Source: Candidatus Pelagibacter sp.
Lineage (GTDB): Bacteria > Pseudomonadota > Alphaproteobacteria > Pelagibacterales > Pelagibacteraceae
Assembly: GCA_028226735.1 (NCBI GenBank)
Contig: JAOIYV010000010.1
Span: 1-29,388, forward strand
Length of the DNA: 29,388 nt
Direction of reading: 5' to 3'
A program made the position numbers and the translations under genes. The notes below the pieces were generated by a model, which saw nothing but the letters and a program-made list of their open reading frames with translations, made no database searches and was not told the origin of the DNA. Below are positions 7,054 to 8,888 of this stretch, one piece after another. The stretch's first letter is position 1. Every line of letters begins with the position of its first letter.

Positions 7054-7713
7054 AACTCAGTTAATAAACTAATTTCTCTTAAAAGGGAAATTTTAGAAAT
7101 TTCCCACAATCTTAACAAAAATAAAGGTGATGCTAAAATCATCGCAGTAAGTAAAACTTTTTCTATGAGTGATATTTTACCACTTATTAATCATGGACAT
7201 GTAGACTTTGGTGAAAATAAAATTCAAGAAGCTATGGAAAAATGGACAGATATAAAAAATGATTTTTCACATCTACAGCTACATATGATCGGTAAATTAC
7301 AAACAAACAAAGTTAAATATGCAATAAAGTTATTTGATTATATTCATTCATTAGACAGTATGAAGTTAGCTGAAAAAATTTCTAGCGAACAAATAAAACA
7401 AGGCAAAAAGGTGAAAATATTTATTCAGGTTAATATAGGCCAAGAGCCTCAAAAAGGTGGAATAGAAGTAGATGATTTAGAAAATTTTTATCAAGTGTGC
7501 TCTTCAAAGCTTGGATTAAATGTAGTAGGTTTAATGTGCATACCCCCAGAAAATGATCAACCATTAACTTATTTTAAAAAAATAAAAATTTTAAACGATA
7601 AATTCAGTTTAAAAGAGTTAAGTATTGGTATGTCAAATGATTATTTAGAGGCATTAAAATGTTATCCAACTTTTGTAAGAATCGGATCTAAAATTTTTGG
7701 TAAAAGAACTTAA
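7048..7713 (+). CDS. yggS: YggS/PLPBP family pyridoxal-phosphate homeostasis protein
   Basis: Cytoplasmic PLP-binding protein, 221 residues, close to the family's usual 220-235. The PLP lysine is K36 in IIAVSKTF. Further landmarks are DFGENKIQEA, LQLHMIGKLQTNK, IFIQVNIGQEPQKGG, VVGLMCIPP, LSIGMSNDY and a final VRIGSKIFG, the classic type-III-fold PLP phosphate site. Members are not known catalysts; they buffer free PLP and affect amino-acid and vitamin B6 balance. The start at 7048 agrees with the normal N-terminus, and any promoter must lie inside the divergent ThiE-like gene. The stop shares TTAA with the stop of the convergent L,D-transpeptidase-like gene. Confidence 0.95.
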   Translation: MHNSVNKLISLKREILEISHNLNKNKGDAKIIAVSKTFSMSDILPLINHGHVDFGENKIQEAMEKWTDIKNDFSHLQLHMIGKLQTNKVKYAIKLFDYIHSLDSMKLAEKISSEQIKQGKKVKIFIQVNIGQEPQKGGIEVDDLENFYQVCSSKLGLNVVGLMCIPPENDQPLTYFKKIKILNDKFSLKELSIGMSNDYLEALKCYPTFVRIGSKIFGKRT

Positions 7714-8198
7714 CCAATTTTAATTTTAGTTTTTTTATCTATTAGATTTAACAATATCTCAAAATCCTTTTTTTGAATTGCGATACATCCTGCAGTTGGA
7801 TTATAATTATTAGTTAGATGTATAAATATGGCACTACCTTTATTTGGGATATTTTTACTATTATAATTAATTGTAATTAAGTAATCATACTTGTTGTCTT
7901 TTCTATAAAAATTCTCTTTATTTTTTTTCGTAATTGTTTTTATTTCTTGGTTATATTTTTTATTTTTTGGATCATCACACCAGGCCATATCTTTGGTAAT
8001 AATTTTTTTTTTGATTTTACATTGCACATTTCCCACTCTATCTTTTCTAAAATACAATTTATTAAGATTAAAAAAACCTCTTGGCGTACAGTAATCTCCC
8101 TCTCTTTTTCTTGAACTTATGCCGTTTTTCCCTATACAGCATCTTATAATAAAGTTATCAATCATAAGAGTATCTTTATTTTTTATGTAGATTGTCAT
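7710..8198 (-). CDS. L,D-transpeptidase (YkuD-domain) family protein
   Basis: A 162-residue protein built almost entirely of a YkuD-type catalytic domain. Visible motifs are KREGDYCTPRGFFNL near the N-terminus, a central MAWCDDP, and the active-site region AIFIHLTNNYNPTAGCIAI, with the conserved His and catalytic Cys (TAGC where many members have SHGC). Such enzymes make 3-3 crosslinks in peptidoglycan or attach other groups to it through the Cys. Unusually for an envelope enzyme, I see no signal peptide or membrane segment at the N-terminus (MTIYIKNKDTLMIDNF). The gene starts 14 bases from a divergently transcribed winged-helix regulator. Confidence 0.82.
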   Translation of the reverse strand: MTIYIKNKDTLMIDNFIIRCCIGKNGISSRKREGDYCTPRGFFNLNKLYFRKDRVGNVQCKIKKKIITKDMAWCDDPKNKKYNQEIKTITKKNKENFYRKDNKYDYLITINYNSKNIPNKGSAIFIHLTNNYNPTAGCIAIQKKDFEILLNLIDKKTKIKIG

Positions 8199-8212: not shown

Positions 8213-8785
8213 ATGATTAAGCAGAATGTTAATGTTGTTAACTTTAATTCATTATACGAGATCTTAAATGAGATCAAAGATGATTTGTCTTTTAATGTAA
8301 TAAAACACGAAAAAGAGACAGATGTTATTAATGATAAAAAAAATATTACAGAAGACTCACTAATAATAACAAGCCCAAATAATAAGAGTTTAAGTGGAAA
8401 AAATTTATTAGTTTTGGATGATTTGCCAATGCCTATAGTTAGATTGGTTGAGCTAATTAATATTAACCTGATAAAATTAAAATTTAATCTTCAATCCAAA
8501 ATTAATATTAAAGACTACATTTTGAATTTAAATTCAAAATTTATTTCTAAAAAAGAAATTAATTTAAAATTAACTGAGAAAGAAATTGAAATTATATTAT
8601 ATTTAGATAAAAAAAAAGTTAAACACAGTGTTTTAGAGTTACAAAAGAATATATGGGGATATGCTTCAGATTTAGAAACACATACAGTTGAAACCCATAT
8701 TTATAGATTAAGAAAAAAAATAAGTGACAAGTTTGGCGATAAAAATTTAATCATTAGTAGTGATGAAGGATATTTTATTGAATAA
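8213..8785 (+). CDS. Winged-helix (OmpR/PhoB-type) transcriptional regulator
   Basis: The C-terminal ~75 residues are a recognisable OmpR/PhoB DNA-binding domain: LTEKEIEIILYL, the loop containing NIWGYASDLETHTVETHIYRLRKKI (recognition helix THTVETHIYRLR) and the closing wing LIISSDEGYFIE. The N-terminal ~110 residues take the place of a receiver domain, but I cannot find the acidic pair, phospho-acceptor Asp or Lys pattern of a normal receiver. It may therefore act without phosphorylation. It lies 14 bases from the divergent L,D-transpeptidase-like gene, so regulating that gene is a reasonable guess. The ArfA-like ORF begins inside its last codons. Confidence 0.75.
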   Translation: MIKQNVNVVNFNSLYEILNEIKDDLSFNVIKHEKETDVINDKKNITEDSLIITSPNNKSLSGKNLLVLDDLPMPIVRLVELININLIKLKFNLQSKINIKDYILNLNSKFISKKEINLKLTEKEIEIILYLDKKKVKHSVLELQKNIWGYASDLETHTVETHIYRLRKKISDKFGDKNLIISSDEGYFIE

Positions 8786-8888
8786 AAAAAATTTTATAGC
8801 AAAGTCTTTAAAAAATCTTAAATTTAGGCAAAGAGTTGTAAAACCTAAAAAAGGCAAGGGTAGTTATAAAAGAAAAAAAGCTAAATAA
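8778..8888 (+). CDS. arfA: ArfA-like alternative ribosome rescue factor (36 codons)
   Basis: A tiny basic protein whose core, FRQRVVKPKKGKGSYKRKK, closely matches E. coli ArfA (FRQRVEKNKKGKGSYMRK). The preceding NFIAKSLKNLK lines up without gaps with NAIEALLHDPL of ArfA. ArfA enters ribosomes stalled on mRNAs lacking a stop codon, places its basic tail in the empty mRNA channel and recruits RF2 to release the peptide. I choose the TTG at 8778 because AAGGA (8766-8770) lies seven bases upstream; an in-frame ATG at 8763 would give 41 residues but has no ribosome site. The ORF overlaps the regulator's end by eight bases and the adenosine-kinase-like gene's end by eight. It ends with a TAA soon after the KGKGSY core, and I see no hairpin like the one that destabilises E. 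coli arfA mRNA. Confidence 0.8.
   Translation: MNKKNFIAKSLKNLKFRQRVVKPKKGKGSYKRKKAK

Follow-up and report, generated by a model that had tools for sequence, protein, structure and literature searches.

An ArfA-family open reading frame in SAR11 bacteria: a little-noticed occurrence of a known family, apparently under different control

The short open reading frame (ORF) at positions 8778-8888 of the window, that is, of the whole 29,388-nucleotide stretch of Candidatus Pelagibacter DNA analysed here, is real and is a member of the ArfA family; characterised ArfA proteins release ribosomes that have stalled on damaged messages. We consider it probable, at roughly 0.8, that the ORF encodes a functional, minimal ArfA, its rescue activity being predicted from the sequence. 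Some SAR11 copies already carry the name ArfA in databases, so what is described here is an established family in a setting that has drawn little attention, and its control is apparently different. SAR11 is among the ocean's most abundant bacterial groups. A published survey reports no ArfA in Alphaproteobacteria (PMC11633108), yet 100 of 148 genomes of the SAR11 order have one.

Identity and extent of the ORF

The features of the window to which the text refers are as follows.

7710..8198, minus strand: YkuD gene of the conserved neighbourhood (Pfam YkuD, 49.9 bits), kept in ArfA-less loci
8213..8785, plus strand: winged-helix (Trans_reg_C) regulator gene (Pfam, 41.4 bits), its stop overlapping the arfA start
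8763..8888, plus strand: possible 41-codon form of arfA from ATG 8763, equal to the protein-database form
8766..8770, plus strand: AAGGA, 7 bases ahead of TTG 8778 and possibly its ribosome-binding site, the same in relative L013
8778..8888, plus strand: arfA ORF, 36 codons from TTG, then TAA, with Pfam ArfA and PDB matches
8790..8873, plus strand: 28-codon core, aligned with E. coli ArfA residues 14-41, both gene overlaps excluded
8823..8837, plus strand: FRQRV, aligned with E. coli ArfA residues 25-29, described as RF2-binding in structures (PMC5378476)
8850..8867, plus strand: KGKGSY, aligned with the segment of E. coli ArfA described in the mRNA channel (PMC5378476)
8881..9810, minus strand: pfkB-family kinase gene (Pfam PfkB, 145.7 bits), convergent, its end overlapping the arfA stop by 8 bases

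The first-pass annotation had recognised in the ORF, which translates as LNKKNFIAKSLKNLKFRQRVVKPKKGKGSYKRKKAK with TAA as stop, the functional core of E. coli ArfA, including FRQRV and KGKGSY. Both motifs were located, and the Pfam model of ArfA (PF03889) matches at 33.7 bits against a curated cut-off of 25.5 (E 2.5e-8), above background and far beyond chance. ArfA is the sole Pfam match, the GGQ peptidyl-tRNA hydrolase domain of ArfB being absent; an NCBIfam search of the ORF gave no match. All six chains listed by a PDB search are ArfA (of E. coli, judged by sequence; best E 8.4e-5), and the best alignment pairs ORF residues 3-33 with E. coli ArfA residues 11-41, so that the gapless match claimed for about 30 residues was found over 31. 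Within the core, 17 of 28 positions (61%) are identical to E. coli ArfA, and the E. coli order and spacing are kept, with the RF2-facing segment followed by the basic KGKGS channel segment. The Pfam ArfA domain is present in 37 of 37 protein-database matches, and P0005 and P0006 had already been called ArfA of Candidatus Pelagibacter by their source.

Three in-frame starts are found in the window (GTG 8760, ATG 8763 and TTG 8778). We favour TTG 8778 as the likely start, because in relative L013, which shares the upstream codons, ATA replaces ATG and the sole possible start is the TTG behind the same AAGGA; the 41-residue form is possible too. Of 79 copies, 41 (window included) have the start nearest the core where the window has its TTG, and many other copies have an ATG four codons before that position. 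The TTG behind AAGGA and the overlaps with the genes on both sides are as first described; 7 bases separate AAGGA from TTG, and the overlaps with the regulator and kinase genes are of 8 bases each when counted from TTG. The accompanying expectation that gene callers would easily miss the ORF was not supported: the 41-residue form is already in the database of predicted proteins (P0002, on 23 contigs), and eight further 41-residue relatives stand among the top protein-database matches.

Conservation, neighbourhood and distribution in SAR11

A SAR11-like source of the DNA had been proposed, and the DNA is indeed SAR11, the neighbouring kinase being 84% identical to uncultured Candidatus Pelagibacter MAGs. 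Eighty loci were drawn via this gene, all kept loci bearing SAR11 titles. The ArfA ORF is present in 78 of them, and in 73 it lies tail-to-tail with the kinase gene and directly adjoins it. From two loci (L004 and L006) arfA alone is missing, the kinase, regulator and YkuD genes standing in their usual order, and a PF03889 search of the two drafts behind them (G010 and G011) found no arfA elsewhere. Selection was analysed on the 28-codon core in 79 sequences, the 78 loci plus the window. Heterozygosity at codon positions 1, 2 and 3 is 0.14, 0.14 and 0.40; pN/pS is 0.08 among 95 pairs below 10% divergence and 0.13 among 751 pairs at 10-20%, and for more distant pairs, whose synonymous sites approach saturation, it rises to 0.23 (1,820 pairs) and 0.28 (415 pairs). 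Two shifted frames and one antisense frame gave 1.43, 1.77 and 2.26. The arfA core is thus under strong, frame-specific purifying selection as a protein, and the reading frame is conserved among relatives, one of the two points on which the first-pass annotation had staked its proposal. Across 112 SAR11 cores (some genomes counted twice), K31, K33-S38 and R41 are nearly invariant.

At 64 of 69 loci the regulator gene runs 1-20 bases past the arfA start (4 bases at 24 of them), and at the other five the two do not overlap, counting from the start nearest the core in the 69 of 79 placements with a recognised regulator ORF (10 have none). This arrangement suggests translational coupling, and arfA is probably co-translated with the regulator gene. 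A convergent gene follows arfA in 113 of 116 placements (median gap 1 base) and a same-strand gene in three; some genomes enter the placement and core sets twice (L056 and L081, for example, are both in G005). Away from the regulator lies the arfA of G012 and G018. Some variants of the neighbourhood may be recorded here. The window's regulator (8213-8785), 190 residues long, is a winged-helix protein of OmpR type, and Pfam detects no receiver domain in it. Other genes separate the kinase gene from arfA in L010, L013, L029, L070 and L076; in L013, the locus looked at, they are oxygenase-like, namely three tandem ORFs of 200-201 residues (L013:6935-8887), the last of them matching 2OG-Fe(II) oxygenase (PF13759, 94.7 bits). 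Three genomes (G028, G047 and G136) have arfA beside the regulator and the kinase gene several kilobases off.

The wider distribution was followed in 148 genomes of the order, requested at ≥80% completeness, with A1, a profile mostly of SAR11 proteins. It matched 103 genomes at E <= 1e-3, one match each, and found no ArfA in 45. The matches are strong in 100 genomes (E <= 3.4e-13) and weak in three (G062, G029 and G020; E 6e-5 to 2e-4), which were left out of the ArfA-positive count because they are without KGKGS and are not assigned to ArfA by Pfam. Beyond these weak matches, no ArfA came from the 27 genomes that form a divergent group (kinase identity 44-50%). Outside this group, 17 of the 21 ArfA-negative genomes were covered at the locus itself (G091, G119, G121 and G128 gave no kinase match or a weak one): in all 17 the regulator gene lies next to the kinase gene, no more than 35 bases away, and ArfA is absent. 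The ArfA trait needs 7 changes on a 110-row kinase tree, against a shuffled mean of 20-22; the tree is that of one gene, with 41 of 107 inner branches drawn open and not all firm. We read this pattern as early presence of ArfA in the main group followed by several losses; several lineages seem to have lost arfA, which would make it dispensable there. Tentatively, we take the ArfA-negative G022 and G024 to be HTCC1062 and HTCC7211, the ArfA-positive G037 and G018 to be HIMB5 and HIMB114, and G020 to be LSUCC0530.

The ORFs behind the three weak matches, L225:1179-1286 (G020), L226:1144-1257 (G062) and L227:1008-1142 (G029), are ArfA-like, 35-44 residues long, without KGKGS and from divergent SAR11. 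That of L225 reaches the cut-off of DUF7230 (PF23876) with 27.0 bits, and DUF7230, of which a literature search on it gave no mention, may by sequence be related to ArfA. As a stand-in for ArfA it was rejected, with a match in one of 148 order genomes (below cut-off) and in four of 386 class genomes.

Whether the genome has ssrA, smpB and arfB had been named as a check; the answer obtained concerns the order, as does that on RF2, and not the window's own genome. Nearly all of the 148 genomes have the first two (tmRNA matches in 141, 140 over cut-off; SmpB in 137), and the ArfB model exceeds its cut-off in none of them, with two of 14 control genomes passing. Sub-cut-off matches to the ArfB model occur in all 148; those listed cover some 34 of 140 positions and lie in frames 223-373 residues long, which is what RF1 and RF2 would give. 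RF2 (TIGR00020) is over cut-off in both loci checked, from two order genomes. Lack of tmRNA was discarded as a reason for ArfA, the seven genomes without a tmRNA match comprising six with ArfA and one without, and the drafts being incomplete.

Like ArfA, ArfB (YaeJ) is a trans-translation backup; unlike it, ArfB is a release-factor-independent GGQ enzyme. The survey of 2,376 Alphaproteobacteria, which used nucleotide profiles, gives arfA in 0, arfB in 2,022 and smpB in 2,296 (PMC11633108). Its zero may be explained by limited sensitivity, because even the Pfam model, which matched nine of 11 genomes of SAR11 loci, was over cut-off in only four, or by the strains sampled. PF03889 matched nine of 386 class genomes, three of which (G002, G012 and G018) are also in the order set. 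ArfA-like matches with divergent cores were seen in six further class genomes (L195, L199-L203), five of them over the Pfam cut-off. Among the papers listed by literature searches of open-licence texts, none deals with ArfA in SAR11 cells. Among the best 120 of 7,624 matches of a protein search from A2, the named ones are chiefly enteric; a search from P0037 gave two matches.

Mechanism, control and alternative readings

In E. coli, ArfA residues 31-48 are described in the mRNA channel and residues 25-29 against RF2 (PMC5378476). The basic C-terminal part of the SAR11 protein (KPKKGKGSYKRKK) would likewise occupy the mRNA channel left empty when a ribosome reaches the end of a broken message, the middle (FRQRV) would contribute a strand to release factor 2 (RF2), and the nascent chain would then be freed by RF2 without a stop codon. 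ArfA in SAR11 would thus depend on RF2 and back up tmRNA/SmpB in a lineage where ArfB was not found. Besides the ungapped core, the window's arfA shares with that of E. coli (YhdL, PF03889) a convergent next gene that it overlaps, in E. coli mscL by 4 bases. The E. coli protein differs in having 72 residues, a hydrophobic tail and a strong in-ORF hairpin, whereas the window's ArfA has 36 or 41 residues, a normal stop, no such hairpin and a start overlapping the regulator gene. ArfT of Francisella, set beside ArfA by description, is reportedly also a small factor recruiting a release factor. BrfA of Bacillus subtilis, described as a small release-factor-recruiting factor as well, is set apart by its described distinct sequence and N-terminal binding (PMC8012679).

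As to control, the E. coli arfA message is reported to be often non-stop and curbed by tmRNA (PMC8012679). The first-pass annotation had seen neither an E. coli-type hairpin nor anything other than a normal stop soon after the core, and both statements were upheld. The ORF ends in TAA directly past the functional core, the E. coli-type hydrophobic tail being absent. In a scan of 60-base fold windows, E. coli arfA reached a best MFE of -29.1 (z -7.53, codon 47) and the window's arfA a best z of -1.41; the median best-window z among the 79 SAR11 copies is -1.08, L071 (-3.75) and L015 (-3.28) being lowest, and in none of them does a hairpin match the E. coli one in strength. The window region gave a fold z of 0.46 and no terminator, and the terminator scan found none in any of the 79 SAR11 copies. 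The known hairpin escaped that scan in E. coli, where the one site reported lies near the gene end; the true control is therefore the fold score. Hairpin control of the E. coli kind was rejected on the window scans and the 79-copy fold comparison, and SAR11 ArfA is predicted to be free of the tmRNA-mediated repression known in E. coli.

The convergent gene arrangement may leave another route for such repression. Were the overlap with the convergent kinase message to cause cutting of paired RNA, non-stop arfA messages would arise without a hairpin and a functional ArfA would still be under tmRNA control, an explanation that differs from the preferred one in control only. The convergent next gene in 113 of 116 placements, at a median gap of 1 base, would suit it, as would the overlap of E. 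coli arfA with convergent mscL, and one paper reportedly deals with arfA antisense RNA and MscL. SAR11 genomes are compact, however, and a gap near zero is expected in them anyway; with the three same-strand placements also against it, we hold this explanation to be improbable. A further alternative touches function itself. Two features speak against a simple transfer of the E. coli mechanism: the position of E. coli A18, where A18T is reported to abolish activity (PMC8012679), is K in the window and in 92% of SAR11 cores, and the window's ArfA ends at aligned position 45, two residues short of the shortest active E. coli form, which is reported active when cut at 47 and inactive if shorter (PMC5378476). 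Together with the tight linkage to the regulator gene, these would fit a relative of ArfA that has given up RF2 recruitment and, as a small basic peptide, still binds the ribosomal mRNA channel or RNA generally, for example in hibernation or in regulation of its neighbours. But the RF2-facing segment is conserved together with the channel segment, and K18, also usual in viral ArfA-like cores (79%), may be the family's other common state; we regard such a change of function as quite improbable. On the preferred reading, a functional ArfA, the extra lysines at 40 and 43 may compensate for the short end.

Being short, lysine-rich and in overlap with both neighbours, the ORF might also be taken for a chance ORF or a by-product of two overlapping genes. 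That explanation was ruled out by its presence in 78 of 80 loci and by frame-specific selection on a core that in the window lies outside both overlaps; the ArfA profile match and the existence of other genomes with the same neighbours and no trace of the ORF between them likewise make it extremely improbable.

ArfA of phages

Scanning viral contigs with A1 gave at least 245 relatives, of which 80 loci were kept; the four SAR11 neighbour genes were sought beside these 80 copies and none was there. SAR11 cores are closer to the viral cores (mean 64%) than to E. coli (42%), the viral set being biased towards SAR11 by the SAR11-heavy profile used to pick it. The pelagiphage HTVC027P, whose host is the SAR11 strain HTCC1062 according to its record, encodes ArfA as gp30, and both this ArfA and its expression have been reported (PMC12753301). 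Together with other phage ArfA it belongs to the same family by alignment, with an NPxAK-type N-terminal part and a PKKG[KR]GS core; unlike the window's protein, it has 58 residues and an extra N-terminal part, and at 20.2 bits it falls below the Pfam cut-off. Two lysine-rich ArfA peptides had no tblastn match among phages at E <= 10, for which low-complexity filtering may be the cause. With a phage peptide that has an extra N-terminal part, 12 records were obtained, with E <1e-3 only for HTVC027P, CRP-212 and Cr30 (two records); also among them, at E 0.4, is Citromicrobium phage RXM, which is described with an annotated ArfA (PMC8953757). A DNA search with viral arfA gave two short, weak matches, and in Lederberg EXVC029P, the weak DNA match inspected, no ArfA is annotated.

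A joint reading of these results can be offered tentatively, and as a whole we think it rather doubtful. A phage-type ArfA would have replaced ArfB as the backup of trans-translation in SAR11 and been freed from tmRNA control; it would be made steadily, co-translated with the regulator, as a second, permanent line of rescue; and lineages that lost it, apparently laboratory strains too, would be resupplied by ArfA-carrying phages at infection. If the strain names given above are right, two model strains are without ArfA and a phage of one of them brings its own, which would make it possible to test directly what phages gain from rescue factors. The SAR11 form, whose length falls below that of every E. 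coli form reported active, likewise tests which residues are needed, and its normal stop codon tests whether tmRNA must curb ArfA.

The ArfA core also occurs inside larger phage proteins of 99-142 residues (L140:4890-5297, L171:4980-5405 and L182:814-1110; similar in L147, L170 and L177). Pfam ArfA is over cut-off in all three tested (L140, L171 and L182), and in L140 two PHROG families of unknown function flank the ArfA core, one before and one after it.
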